64,000 nt of DNA, taken from the NCBI RefSeq assembly GCF_007341385.1, contig NZ_VJYD01000005.1, forward strand, positions 124,001 through 188,000, written 5' to 3'. Made by a program: the position numbers and the translations under genes. A model generated the notes under the pieces. That model made no database searches. It was not told the origin of the DNA and worked only from the letters and a program-made list of their open reading frames with translations. Origin of the DNA: Flavobacterium daemonense (GTDB lineage Bacteria; Bacteroidota; Bacteroidia; Flavobacteriales; Flavobacteriaceae). Numbering within the stretch: position 1 is the first letter of the stretch; each line of letters opens with the position of its first letter. Positions 17,438 to 40,305 of this stretch are shown here, one piece after another.

Positions 17438-17484
17438 CTTCTATATTTTTCACATTAATTCCAAAAGTGCACTATTGCTGGCTC

Positions 17485-17562
17485 ATTAGCCCCGATTGAA
17501 GTGGAAATCCTTTTTGTTTTTTTCTTTAAAAAATAAAAAGATTGCAACGAAAAGCGGGAACT
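17485..17562. repeat. Intergenic repeat, family 3 copy b
   Basis: AGCCCCGATTGAAGTGGAAA, a T-rich/A-rich centre able to pair, then AGATTGCAACGAAAAGCGGGA. A diverged inverted copy lies at 5265-5335. It sits between the SAM-I aptamer and metH-N. Confidence 0.6.
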
Positions 17563-17667
17563 ACTGACTGCAAAAATGCGCCAATGATTCGCTCCTTCTA
17601 CTGAATTGCTTCGGTAAATATTGTATGTTGTCTGGAAAAGTTTTGAGAAATACGAGTATGTATTTGT

Positions 17668-17780
17668 GTTATCTATCTTTAATACTGGAAAATGTCGTAT
17701 AAAGTAGAATTTAGCACCTTCTTTATAGTAAAGGGTTGCTAAGGTTTCATCGGGTCTATCCCTCCGCCTTTCGTGATAAC
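17668..17780 (-). promoter_or_regulatory. SAM-I (S-box) riboswitch upstream of metH
   Basis: Read on the minus strand: P1 GTTATC (17780-17775) closes with GATAAC (17673-17668). Between them are the conserved S-box blocks GGCGGAGGGATAGACCCGAT, GAAACC, TTAGCAACCC, and AAGGTGCTAAATTC, in the canonical order and spacing for the kink-turn, P3 and the J3/4 regions. SAM binding should reduce expression of metH-N, the gene behind it, metH-C and metF. The expression platform is not clear, because repeats occupy the rest of the leader. Confidence 0.93.
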
Positions 17781-17803
17781 TGACAATAATTTTAAGAACA
17801 GTG

Positions 17804-35593: not shown

Positions 35594-35667
35594 ATCTTTT
35601 TATTATTGATTTGTATGTGGAAATATTAGAAAGAAAGTCTAGAGTTTGAAACTAGAAAAATTCTTGT

Positions 35668-35774
35668 TGTTATCTTTCCACGTTTGGGCGTGGTAGAATG
35701 CAGCACCTTCTTCGAATTAACGAAGGGTTGCTAAGGATTCATCGGGTCTAATCCCTCCTCCTTTCTTTATAACA
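35668..35774 (-). promoter_or_regulatory. SAM-I (S-box) riboswitch upstream of metX
   Basis: On the minus strand P1 is TGTTAT (35774-35769) with ATAACA (35673-35668). Conserved blocks in order: AAAGGAGGAGGGATTAGACC, CGATGAATCC, TTAGCAACCCTTCG, GAAGAAGGTGCTGCATTC, then the P4 hairpin CCACG/CGTGG. It should shut down metX-thrA-osmC-metB/Z when SAM is abundant. Homologous in layout to the metH aptamer but with its own P3 and P4 loops. Confidence 0.93.
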
Positions 35775-35802
35775 TTTCAATACGTTTTTGAACTTAACGG
35801 TG

Positions 35803-38014: not shown

Positions 38015-39319
38015 CTAATTTTTATTGATACTGTATTGCGCTTGTGTAACGCTTTCAAAAACCGCTTTTAAGTCGGCGATTAAATCTTCAATATCTTCTA
38101 TTCCAACTGAAAGTCGGATTAAATCTTTAGAAACACCCGTTGACAACTGATCTTCTTCAGACAATTGCTGATGTGTTGTGCTTGCTGGATGAATAATCAA
38201 TGATTTTGTGTCTCCGATATTCGCTAATAGTGAGAACAACTTCGTTTCGTCAACTACTTTTTTCGCGGCATCAAAACCTCCTTTTAATCCAAAAGTGATA
38301 ATGCCACTTTGTCCTTCAGGAAGATATTCTTTGGCTAAATCATAATATTTATTTGATTTTAAGCCTGGATAGTTTACCCAAACCACTTCATCTTGTTTCT
38401 CAAGCCATTCAGCCAAGGCCAAAGCATTTTCGCTGTGTTTTTTAATTCGGATTGGCAATGTTTCAAGTCCCTGAATAATCTGGAAAGCATTGAACGGACT
38501 CAAAGCCGCGCCAAAATCGCGCAAACCTTCAATTCTTGCTTTTGCAATAAAAGCTGCATTTCCAAGAGCTTCGTGATATACTAATCCGTGATATCCTGCA
38601 GAAGGTTCTGTAAATTCAGGGAATTTTCCGTTAGACCAATCAAAAGTTCCGGCATCAATAATGACGCCTCCTAATGAAGTTCCGTTTCCGGAAATATATT
38701 TTGTTAAGGAATGAATTACAATATCGGCGCCATATTTAATTGGGTTCAATAAATAAGGAGTCGCAACTGTATTATCTACTATAAAAGGCACTTTGAATGC
38801 TTTGGCTTCCGCCGAAATTCCTTTTAAATCCAATACATCTAATTTTGGATTACCTAATGATTCTACAAAAAAGGCTCTCGTATTCTCTTTTGCCGCTTTT
38901 GTGAAGTTTTCTGGTTTCGAAGGATCTACAAAAGTTGTCGTAATTCCTAATCGTGGTAATGTTACGCTCAATAAGTTGTAAGTCCCGCCGTATAAACTGT
39001 TTGATGCCACGATATGATCTCCGGCTCTCAACAAAGTCAGTAAAGTTGTCGAAATTGCCGACGCTCCAGATGCTGTAACAACGGCTCCAATACCGCCTTC
39101 AAGCGCTGCTAATCGTTGTTCTAAAACATCATTTGTTGGATTGTTTAATCTAGTGTAGATAAATCCTGCTTCGGCAAGACCAAATAAATTGGCAGCATGA
39201 TCGGCATTATTAAATATGTATGATGAAGTCTGATAAATTGGTACGGCTCTAGTTCCTGCGTTTTTAGTAACATCGTGTCCTGCGTGCAAAGCGTTTGTTG
39301 CAAATTTTTGTGTACTCAT
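38015..39319 (-). CDS. metY: O-acetylhomoserine sulfhydrylase
   Basis: 434 residues, longer than the 390-residue paralog and typical of MetY. PLP Lys in VIHSLTKYISGNGTSLGGVI; family start KFATNALHAGHDVTKNAGTR; FIYTRLNNPTNDVLEQRLAAL. It makes homocysteine directly from O-acetylhomoserine and sulfide produced by the cys operon. It lies behind a 61-codon ORF and two leader/terminator units. Confidence 0.93.
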   Translation of the reverse strand: MSTQKFATNALHAGHDVTKNAGTRAVPIYQTSSYIFNNADHAANLFGLAEAGFIYTRLNNPTNDVLEQRLAALEGGIGAVVTASGASAISTTLLTLLRAGDHIVASNSLYGGTYNLLSVTLPRLGITTTFVDPSKPENFTKAAKENTRAFFVESLGNPKLDVLDLKGISAEAKAFKVPFIVDNTVATPYLLNPIKYGADIVIHSLTKYISGNGTSLGGVIIDAGTFDWSNGKFPEFTEPSAGYHGLVYHEALGNAAFIAKARIEGLRDFGAALSPFNAFQIIQGLETLPIRIKKHSENALALAEWLEKQDEVVWVNYPGLKSNKYYDLAKEYLPEGQSGIITFGLKGGFDAAKKVVDETKLFSLLANIGDTKSLIIHPASTTHQQLSEEDQLSTGVSKDLIRLSVGIEDIEDLIADLKAVFESVTQAQYSINKN

Positions 39320-39405
39320 GATTTCTTAGTTTTTAGATATTGTTAATTGATATATTTTAAGTTGATGGTTTGTAGTTGATTGTTGGTGGTTAATTCGGAA
39401 AAAAA

Positions 39406-39591
39406 TTAATTAAATAAAAAATCTCCTTCTTCTTCAAGATCATACATTTGAAACAGTAAGGATTTTTGATTTTTCCTGTTCTGTTCCTCATTTATTCGTA
39501 TAACTTCTTTTGTTATATCCTCTGATTTCGTATTGATCTGAGAATCATTTCTTAGTAAATATTCTATTGCGATTGAGTTTAATGTTTTCAT
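39406..39591 (-). CDS. Small protein B (61 aa), related to small protein C
   Basis: Starts MKTLNSIAIEYLLRNDS and ends SLLFQMYDLEEEGDFLFN; the tail matches that of the small ORF at 35964-36164. Acidic C terminus, no membrane segment, no signal peptide. It starts 24 nt after a Met/Cys leader's terminator U-tract and ends 86 nt before metY. Family not recognised. It could be a genuine small regulator or a conserved second leader. Confidence 0.6.
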   Translation of the reverse strand: MKTLNSIAIEYLLRNDSQINTKSEDITKEVIRINEEQNRKNQKSLLFQMYDLEEEGDFLFN

Positions 39592-39614
39592 AATTTGAAT
39601 TTTTTAAAGTTTTA

Positions 39615-39653
39615 AATAAAAAAAGCCCTTTCGGATGGCGACCAAAAGGGCTT
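39615..39653 (-). terminator. Attenuator terminator B
   Basis: Minus strand AAGCCCTTT / AAAGGGCTT stem (39653-39623) followed by TTTTTATTT. CTTTTGG in its left arm (39648-39642) is exactly complementary to CCAAAAG (39694-39688) at the end of leader ORF B. A second hairpin TTATAGTT/AACTATAA (39668-39651) overlaps the base of the terminator stem. Confidence 0.8.
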
Positions 39654-39684
39654 ATAGTTGAAACTATAACAAAGATTTTATCTT

Positions 39685-39762
39685 TCACTTTTGGCAACAG
39701 CAAGTTGGGATGCACATTTGCATCATTCTACAACACATCATATTTTTTGCTATTGTTTTCAT
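39685..39762 (-). CDS. Leader peptide B (Met/Cys-rich, candidate attenuator)
   Basis: A 25-codon ORF reading MKTIAKNMMCC, RMMQMCIPT, CCCQK. It contains six Met and six Cys in 25 codons, including runs MM-CC, MM and CCC. The final CCC codons overlap the CCAAAAG segment that can invade terminator B. This is the organisation of a classical attenuation leader, with the amino acids that the following metY operon makes or uses. Direct sequence observation; attenuation is inferred. Confidence 0.75.
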   Translation of the reverse strand: MKTIAKNMMCCRMMQMCIPTCCCQK

Positions 39763-39880
39763 TTTAATTAAATTCTAATCTTATTTTTAAATTCGACTAA
39801 TTCGATAGAGTAAATGTAATAAGTATTTATTTAACCACCAAATTAAAAATCAAGTTTTATTTATTTTTCGTTTTTGACCA

Positions 39881-39909
39881 AAAAAAAACCTCTGCACTAT
39901 GCAGAGGTT
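39881..39909 (-). terminator. Attenuator terminator A
   Basis: Minus strand AACCTCTGC / GCAGAGGTT stem (39909-39887), 5-nt loop, then TTTTTTTT. A GCAGAG segment in leader ORF A (39950-39945) duplicates the right arm and can pair with the left arm. Confidence 0.85.
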
Positions 39910-39932
39910 CTATATATATTTTTGAAAAAAAA

Positions 39933-40001
39933 CTACAATAGTATCTCTGCGGAAAACTCCGACATTTGACAAGACATCATATTGCAAATAATTAATTTCA
40001 T
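39933..40001 (-). CDS. Leader peptide A (Met/Cys-containing, candidate attenuator)
   Basis: A 22-codon ORF reading MKLIICNMMSCQM then SEFSAEILL. It has four Met and two Cys, clustered at codons 6-13, upstream of the antiterminator segment GCAGAG (39950-39945). A promoter candidate (TTG 40056-40054, 20 nt, CAACTTTG 40033-40026) lies just upstream. It is the first of two successive leader/terminator units in front of small protein B and metY. Confidence 0.65.
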   Translation of the reverse strand: MKLIICNMMSCQMSEFSAEILL

Positions 40002-40025: not shown

Positions 40026-40056
40026 CAAAGTTGCAAACAATTTTTGAATCAGCCAA
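40026..40056 (-). promoter_or_regulatory. Candidate promoter of leader A/metY transcript
   Basis: Minus strand TTG, 20 nt, CAACTTTG (one mismatch from TAnnTTTG). Predicted start about 18 nt before the leader ATG. Confidence 0.45.
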
Positions 40057-40077
40057 ACAAAAAGCAAAATATTTTCT

Positions 40078-40176: not shown

Positions 40177-40187
40177 CACCCGAATAC

Positions 40188-40284
40188 AGAGGAAAAATTT
40201 GAACTGATTGCAACCTCTTCATAATGAAATGGTTCGTTATGAGTGCCGAGAGATTAATTTCGGCAGTAAAAAATGCTAAAGCAG
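40188..40284 (+). promoter_or_regulatory. SAM-II-like (long-loop) riboswitch upstream of metK
   Basis: P1 is AGAGG (40188-40192) with CCTCT (40214-40218). Its loop AAAAATTTGAACTGATTGCA resembles the SAM-II P1 loop (ATTTAAC...ATTGCAA in characterised SAM-II). The 3' tail AAAAAATGCTAAAGC (40268-40282) corresponds to the SAM-II tail with GCTAAA. Loop ACTG can pair with tail CAGT to form the pseudoknot. Between P1 and the tail are two extra hairpins (CATAATG/CGTTATG and GCCGA/TCGGC), as in the SAM-II long-loop variants known from Bacteroidetes. Confidence 0.75.
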
Positions 40285-40305
40285 AAACTCTCCTTTAGCC
40301 CTTTT
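40275..40305 (+). terminator. Possible terminator overlapping the metK aptamer tail
   Basis: GCTAAAG (40275-40281) pairs perfectly with CTTTAGC (40293-40299), followed by CCTTTTT. The left arm is part of the aptamer's ligand-binding tail, so the two folds exclude each other. The stem is only 7 bp and AT-rich. Confidence 0.4.

Follow-up and report, generated by a model that had tools for sequence, protein, structure and literature searches.

Two candidate leader-peptide attenuators with methionine and cysteine codons in series ahead of metY in Flavobacterium daemonense

Leader-peptide attenuation is a textbook mechanism, and cysteine leader peptides in mycobacteria and their relatives were reportedly treated by Canestrari in 2020. 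A 64,000-nucleotide (nt) stretch of Flavobacterium daemonense (contig NZ_VJYD01000005.1, positions 124,001 to 188,000; hereafter the window) was analysed for the region preceding metY, where two short open reading frames (ORFs) rich in methionine (Met) and cysteine (Cys) codons, leader 1 and leader 2, are each followed by an intrinsic terminator. Among the closest described systems, Cys leader peptides are reported from mycobacteria and relatives (Actinobacteria) in passages of PMC1262725, leader-peptide attenuation ahead of amino-acid operons is suggested for Flavobacterium psychrophilum in a passage of PMC9723704, and a part of PMC2965389 deals with sensing systems exchanged at one gene, such as a T-box for a leader peptide. 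An earlier note on this DNA, which had described leader 2, knew of no description in Bacteroidetes; the F. psychrophilum proposal takes away the general part of that claim, although section 19 of that paper names neither Met nor Cys and its main text, supplements aside, contains no occurrence of metY. The literature search, which did not extend to most subscription journals or to supplements, turned up nothing on Met or Met/Cys leader peptides from Bacteroidetes. Judging from sequence comparison and folding models, metY is very probably controlled by ribosome-mediated transcription attenuation sensing the supply of Met and, for the most part, of Cys as well.

Two leaders in series and their conservation in Flavobacterium

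On the minus strand 5' of metY, leader 1 (39933-40001, upstream) and leader 2 (39685-39762) stand in series (Table 1) and share one build: an ORF containing Met/Cys codons is followed by an intrinsic terminator, whose left arm is complementary to a segment near the 3' end of the ORF. Each thus presents what would be expected of an attenuator, namely an ORF with codons of the pathway, a biosynthetic gene downstream and an intrinsic terminator in between. The earlier note had described the leader 2 ORF, with Met or Cys in 12 of 25 codons, and the terminator whose left-arm CTTTTGG is the exact complement of CCAAAAG in the last codons, and both were recovered as described; it had missed leader 1 just upstream, with its own terminator and GCAGAG/CTCTGC pair. 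An A was present at -3 before the ATG of both leaders, in agreement with the start context given in a passage of PMC6847099. The fold of terminator 2 had a z of -4.7, and none of 200 shuffles folded equally well.

Leaders were scored in the 700 nt upstream of metY as ORFs having four or more internal Met/Cys codons, a share of at least 16%, and followed by a terminator; the ORF criteria, like those for promoters below, were fixed after the first leaders were known. The 156 Flavobacterium loci are redundant in species and include the window, and the figure of 80 refers to the named loci; L081, a copy of the window, was excluded from the counts, and 40 of 42 further metY rows of the genus were used (G041 and a second gene in G006 were dropped). 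The combination of Met/Cys-rich ORF and terminator was found in 149/156 upstream regions, in 0/156 opposite strands and in 0/1560 dinucleotide shuffles, which rules out a chance ORF; the ORF alone was found in 151/156 regions versus 44/1560 shuffles. All of the named loci (80/80), of which those nearest to the window metY are from Flavobacterium (98% identity), carried the leader 2 ORF. The ORF, its Met/Cys codons and the complementary segments are thus conserved in relatives, a comparison on which the earlier note had staked its reading in advance, and this supports the classical attenuation layout that it had proposed. Leader profiles run on the window's own genome returned the two window copies and one match without assignment (L321, E-value (E) 0.3). 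Two genomes (G030 and G112; loci L108, L111, L115 and L120) had two metY copies each at a distance of ~3-4.5 kb, and every copy had a leader pair of its own, different from that of the other.

Table 1. Features of the metY leader region, in window positions.
Feature	Position	Strand	Basis or remark
metY, O-acetylhomoserine sulfhydrylase, controlled gene	38015..39319	-	TIGR01326 E 2e-194, above cut-off
Promoter-like TTTG-N20-CAACTTTG ahead of leader 1, Bacteroidetes type	40026..40057	-	pattern match
Leader 1 ORF, MKLIICNMMSCQMSEFSAEILL	39933..40001	-	related ORF and terminator in 38 aligned Flavobacterium sequences
Leader 1 candidate antiterminator segment GCAGAG (Ala-Glu codons)	39945..39950	-	pairs with CTCTGC of terminator 1
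Terminator 1 stem-loop, then T run	39885..39911	-	terminator prediction and conservation
Promoter-like TTTG-N20-TACATTT ahead of leader 2	39812..39842	-	pattern match
Conserved imperfect dyad ACTCTATCGAATTAGTCGA, operator-like	39793..39811	-	close form at 49/80 loci
Leader 2 ORF, MKTIAKNMMCCRMMQMCIPTCCCQK	39685..39762	-	12/25 codons Met or Cys, start codon included
Leader 2 segment 1, CAATAGCAA	39747..39755	-	partner is 39695-39703
Leader 2 partner of segment 1, TTGCTGTTG, inside the CCC codons	39695..39703	-	1:2 hairpin
Leader 2 candidate antiterminator segment CCAAAAG	39688..39694	-	pairs with CTTTTGG of terminator 2
Two small hairpins AAAGAT/ATCTTT and ATAGTT/AACTAT, leader 2 stop codon to terminator 2	39654..39685	-	
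Terminator 2 stem-loop and T run	39615..39653	-	stem-loop 39653-39623
Conserved ORF of 61 amino acids (aa), terminator 2 to metY	39406..39591	-	no NCBIfam match

A promoter-like site with the upstream TTTG box known from Bacteroidetes promoters precedes each leader. The site before leader 1 was present at 22/22 named loci having two leaders in the scanned stretch, by a pattern picked after looking, and the site before leader 2 at 65/80 loci versus 81/1600 mononucleotide shuffles; the promoter consensus in a passage of PMC9723704 is TAnnTTTG. At the 25 shortest of 56 two-leader loci, the gap between terminator 1 and leader 2 is only 6-61 nt, which in the shortest cases leaves no room for a separate promoter and suggests that the units act in series there. 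At four loci (L329, L341, L342 and L343) leader 1 sits 3 kb further upstream, before an ORF of 948-951 aa that matches TonB-dependent receptors in L329 and L341, the two that were searched; leader 2 precedes metY at three of the four, and the L341 genome is without leader 2 by the criteria used. The window has no such receptor gene, and its leaders are therefore brought together.

The dyad lies just 3' of the promoter-like site of leader 2, and its only other match in the genome within two mismatches precedes a gene read by eye as SusC-like; an Rrf2-type operator is a possible identity for it. Between terminator 2 and metY, where the window has the 61-aa ORF, the longest ORF was at least 45 aa at 76/80 named loci, and the gap was too small to hold such an ORF in several divergent species.

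None of the four matches in the window at the Rfam gathering score fell inside 39322-40001, and a riboswitch for S-adenosylmethionine (SAM) or a T-box in the metY leader region was rejected on this ground. The nearest match, SAM-II at 40183-40289 (+) before metK, scored 49.2 against a cut-off of 44 and was stretched (107 nt for a 60-position model), as were matches in relatives. Two SAM-I riboswitches were found on the minus strand (17484-17782 and 35667-35775), one of them adjoining a plus-strand Flavo-1 RNA.

RNA pairing, ribosome position and codon use

Pairing was scored on alignments A1, A2 and A5-A7, whose sequences were thinned by hand for redundancy. In 38 Flavobacterium sequences the antiterminator:terminator pairing of leader 1 was paired in 226/226 cells, with 4 double-change cells in two pairs. 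When 28 Flavobacterium sequences were combined with ten from other genera, 91.6% of 261 cells were paired and double-change cells rose to 11, neither measure being reached by any of 500 shuffles; the outermost of the seven pairs was unpaired in 19 sequences and paired in 14. In the cross-operon set of 31 sequences, pairing held in 97.8% of 185 cells, with 8 double-change cells, and 0/500 shuffles scored as high. These counts establish covariation for leader 1.

For leader 2, the 1:2 hairpin formed by codons 3-6 with the CCC codons was paired in 96.7% of cells, with double changes in four pairs (8/9 pairs counted); taken with the two small hairpins and the terminator, 97.2% of cells were paired and 24 were double-change cells, a result not equalled in 500 shuffles (45 sequences). 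In the same number of sequences the CCAAAAG/CTTTTGG pairing held in 99.0% of 315 cells. This 1:2 hairpin stops just short of CCAAAAG without overlapping it, and in leader 1 an inner hairpin overlaps GCA. In 47 of 79 non-redundant leaders the 3' part paired with the terminator left arm better than shuffled leaders did (p<0.05; Fisher's combination 4e-41, for leaders that are non-independent).

The window RNAs were then folded with the ribosome modelled as a block of unpaired bases and the terminator right arm not yet made. Antiterminator pairing in leader 1 was 0.98-1.00 with the ribosome on codons 1-13, 0.09 at codon 14 and 0.00 from codon 15, the last Met being codon 13, one codon before the loss. 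In leader 2 it was 0.99-1.00 on codons 1-18, 0.63 at codon 19 and 0.00 from codon 20; the main Met/Cys block ends at codon 17, and CCC (codons 21-23) lies beyond the switch point. With no ribosome, the antiterminator still formed at 0.98-0.99. The modelled antiterminator thus appears to exclude the terminator and to be reachable only with the ribosome upstream, in leader 2 without covariation. Among the 79 leaders, antiterminator pairing exceeded 0.5 in 45 without a ribosome, in 67 with the ribosome at the first Met, in 48 at the last Met and in 15 at the stop codon. For comparison, a similar script gave 0.30 for Escherichia coli trpL without a ribosome, 0.55-0.56 on the Trp (tryptophan) codons and 0.41 at the stop codon, which shows that the folding method finds the right direction with limited sharpness.

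All of the 79 leaders had internal Met and 69 had Cys, under a selection that was open to Cys-only leaders, so that of the two amino acids that the earlier note had taken to be sensed, Met was constant and Cys was not. Internal Met codons lay 5' of the antiterminator with room for the ribosome in 331/352 cases, compared with 153/203 for Cys and 818/1405 for other codons, counted over leaders that are not phylogenetically independent. Near relatives had an almost invariant leader 2 peptide, also beyond Met and Cys (MCIPxCCCQK), and in divergent Flavobacterium it varied widely apart from Met and often Cys (for example MIVATTHNNGMQMMMMMQMMMHIHLRYCLKPS, MKNNNKMCCMMMMCMCAPP and MILKVNQMMMPMNMNMMMFISRHGRKSAS), leaders such as MTLLTNTMMMVMMMSMMMLPPPRCQKSKS and MILKVNQMMMPMNMNMMMFISRHGRKSAS preserving the Met runs and little besides. 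At two loci (L061 and L069) the CCCQK end was frame-shifted to LLLPKV with the nucleotides TTGCTATTGCCAAAAGT unchanged, several other leader 2 variants had RCC in place of the CCC block, and leader 1 ended in SAE or PQR around one shared CCGCAGAG. Because the nucleotides persist through a change of frame, the 3' end of each ORF seems to be held as RNA and not as peptide. The three CCC codons, which the earlier note had listed among the Met or Cys codons, probably have a part in RNA pairing and not in sensing, since they lie past the switch point, where the ribosome would cover the antiterminator, and are altered in variants.

Related leaders at other operons and outside the genus

At E<=0.05 the leader 1 profile matched 58/121 Flavobacterium genomes, in seven of them without a close metY (G011 only at 0.03). 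Leader 1, often with leader 2, stood ahead of cysHDN, cysE-cysK, metX-like, metH-like and TonB-receptor genes. The leader adjoined cysH-cysD-cysN in L332, with the cysH family in L338 and L339 and, by ORF appearance, L335; cysE-cysK-tetrapyrrole methylase in L331; metX-thrA in L337, with L340 metX-like and L330 partial; and a region with OsmC and a B12-type homocysteine methyltransferase in L334, with L333 and L336 looking alike. The MetX-like proteins, including that of the window, score under the curated NCBIfam cut-offs. Two leaders with terminators were called by script in seven of these eleven loci (L330-L340), and the pair in L336 was found by hand. The leader 1 scaffold is common to these operons; the leader 2 arm CCTTTTGG occurs in L330, L333, L334, L336, L338 and L340 and is not shared by L335 and L339, L338 having no clear CCAAAAG. 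Read by hand in few loci, leaders before cysHDN look richer in Cys and those before metX richer in Met. The two scaffolds of L336, which lie before the OsmC/metH-like region, are poor in Met/Cys codons (MKFIICNMSYFTWKISAGVTVD) and may have been retuned to a different amino acid.

A covariance model of leader 1 (R1) recovered the window copy from its own genome at 4.6e-13, together with a leader before ilvD (MQISIIITSVVVVNVFSTSAAGMV, E 6e-4) with isoleucine/valine (Ile/Val) codons, one before trpE (MKTLMNNTWWWKNLRQTS, E 0.002) with three Trp codons, where the gene scores under the trpE cut-off yet has it as best match, and one before ilvA (MKNFNNIFIAIISIIAIQQ, E 0.06) with Ile codons; at loci L346, L347 and L351 (G000), leaders MQISIIITSVVVV, MKTLMNNTWWWK and MKNFNNIFIAIISIIAI stand before ilvD, trpE and ilvA, respectively. 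The model gave 36 rows at E<=10, and inspection covered all except L358, L360-L364 and 16 rows without a locus; L348-L350, L352-L357 and L359 had no amino-acid-biased leader and were taken as chance. Given the trp and ilv leaders, this genome seems to use attenuation habitually, the Met/Cys units being one case of it.

Outside the genus, 88 metY loci of other Flavobacteriaceae (28 returned, 60 hand-picked) and a phylum sample of 53 loci (13 newly returned, 40 hand-picked to spread over families; L281 with only ~40 nt upstream) were compared. SAM-I was found in 70 of the 88 (58 by pattern and 12 more by Rfam RF00162); ten had leader(s) and no SAM-I pattern, and eight had neither. Leaders by the same criteria outside the family were all outside the class as well, at eight loci, seven of which had SAM-I between the leader terminator and metY, while the eighth (L293) had two leaders. 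Leader-like ORFs ahead of SAM-I were seen by eye only in L292, L302 and L307, and Met-only leaders with a terminator, whose complementarity was not significant, in L165, L166 and L168 (other families of the order sample). In other families of the class, L291, L303 and L308 had a Cys-rich ORF (MMCCCCCC, MCCCC and CCMCICCPCC) between the SAM-I riboswitch and metY, with no terminator found by the criteria used.

Explanations and comparison with known systems

We infer that both ORFs are translated and that two serial attenuators respond to how much charged tRNA for Met (and Cys) is available. With Met or Cys short, the ribosome would dwell on the Met/Cys block. Pairing of the antiterminator segment (leader 1 GCAGAG, leader 2 CCAAAAG) with the newly made left arm would then delay the terminator and let polymerase continue into metY; with both plentiful, the ribosome would stand at the stop codon, cover the segment and allow the terminator to form. 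A transcript from before leader 1 would meet both terminators, and one from the promoter-like site before leader 2 only the second. In an empty leader folding predicts the antiterminator, so that failed initiation, expected at low Met and hence low formylmethionine, would be read as starvation.

Several results weigh against this attenuation reading. For leader 1, counting the pairs that show double changes is less informative than counting cells, since shuffles reached that number of pairs in 25/500 cases (Flavobacterium), 187/500 (cross-genus) and 6/500 (cross-operon). No covariation was found for the leader 2 antiterminator in 45 sequences or across operons (91.1% of 112 cells paired), which speaks neither for nor against it because the pairing hardly varies. 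In the complementarity test 32/79 leaders failed to beat shuffles at 0.05, and across the 79 leaders the ribosome-state model was only moderately clean. Wherever the ribosome was placed, the full-length RNA favoured the terminator at equilibrium, and the switch must therefore be kinetic, as it also is in other attenuators. Outside the family, only 8/47 metY loci of the phylum sample had leaders. Finally, in 16 hand-picked genomes, all matching the cysE and cysK families at E<=0.001 (cysK above cut-off in 12, cysE in none), Cys codons in the leaders did not track a strong cysE match, which was present in 5/6 genomes with Met-dominated leaders (exception G084) and in 8/10 with Met/Cys leaders (exceptions G040 and G502); an explanation of the Cys codons by cysteine synthesis depending on MetY was dropped, as these genomes gave no link.

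That only Met is sensed, with the Cys codons as passengers or fixing local RNA sequence, is doubtful, though it would account for Met in 79/79 leaders against Cys in 69/79 and for a placement bias far greater for Met than for Cys. It fits poorly with the leaders before cysHDN, which look Cys-rich (MSKRIINKMSNCCCAKCCK; few loci, hand-read), with leader 2 of L335, which has CC-C and no internal Met, and with the CC pair kept after the first Met run in leader 2 of near relatives (both hand-read). We consider it very unlikely that an arrest peptide acts here, the nascent chain stalling the ribosome in a TnaC-like manner upon Met, Cys or a related small molecule and so switching the terminator. Close Flavobacterium do conserve MCIPxCCCQK beyond Met and Cys, and in leader 1 the Met block is often followed by Trp-Lys or Pro-Glu; divergent species and other families, however, keep mainly Met (and Cys) runs, the C-terminal frame changes while the nucleotides stay, so that RNA pairing explains the conservation, and leaders with Trp and Ile/Val codons in the same genome share the build.

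Cys/Met-rich peptides can bind metals, and each ORF is followed by a terminator that might merely end its own transcript, yet working peptides of this kind are hardly credible when 10/79 leaders have no Cys, some have lost or frame-shifted the C-terminal Cys, the terminator arms co-vary with nucleotides inside the ORF and the units are placed ahead of sulfur genes. Attenuation by Met (with Cys) supply remains our preferred reading. A wider picture is offered tentatively: a sulfur regulon (cysHDN, cysE-cysK, metX-thrA, metH-like, TonB receptor and metY) might in Flavobacterium rest on a duplicated, transplantable double attenuator, built on one RNA scaffold with antiterminators of the GCAGAG type and often of the CCAAAAG type and with sensor codons retuned between Met and Cys, with analogous units throughout the phylum replacing or stacking with SAM-I and an empty leader read as starvation.

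If these readings are true, Met would join the amino acids sensed by leader-peptide attenuation, no earlier case having been found in the literature searched, and Bacteroidota would have, in addition to SAM riboswitches, another sulfur sensor that responds to tRNA charging. The leaders would be in tandem with SAM riboswitches in some lineages and substitute for them in Flavobacterium, a natural exchange of regulatory RNA at one gene, and they would form a module whose sensor codons were seemingly retuned between operons. Default antitermination would let attenuation operate even with the amino acid that starts every protein, and would thereby solve the initiator-tRNA problem in a way that can be tested.

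Attenuation itself is known; the Met/Cys version, the doubling and the exchange with SAM riboswitches look new. Like E. coli trpL, of the trp/his/thr type, the window leaders have a short ORF with end-product codons, an intrinsic terminator, an alternative antiterminator and a biosynthetic gene downstream, whereas they would sense Met and Cys, come as two units in series and form the antiterminator without a ribosome at 0.98-0.99 versus 0.30. The F. psychrophilum proposal in PMC9723704 concerns, in the section cited, the same genus and the same general mechanism. The mycobacterial Cys leaders, as described in passages of PMC1262725, likewise have runs of Cys codons in a leader ORF before sulfur genes, but with Cys near the stop codon, no conserved terminator hairpins and Rho considered, whereas those of the window are Met-led with an intrinsic terminator and antiterminator. 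In uORFC-8-2 before cysS of Rhodobacterales, two Cys codons in an upstream ORF and a terminator led to a proposal of attenuation in a part of PMC8632094, the differences being a tRNA-synthetase gene, another phylum, Cys only and a single unit. The SAM-I riboswitch (RF00162) precedes metY likewise in most other sampled Flavobacteriaceae genera, but binds SAM, has no ORF and is absent from the metY leader of the window.
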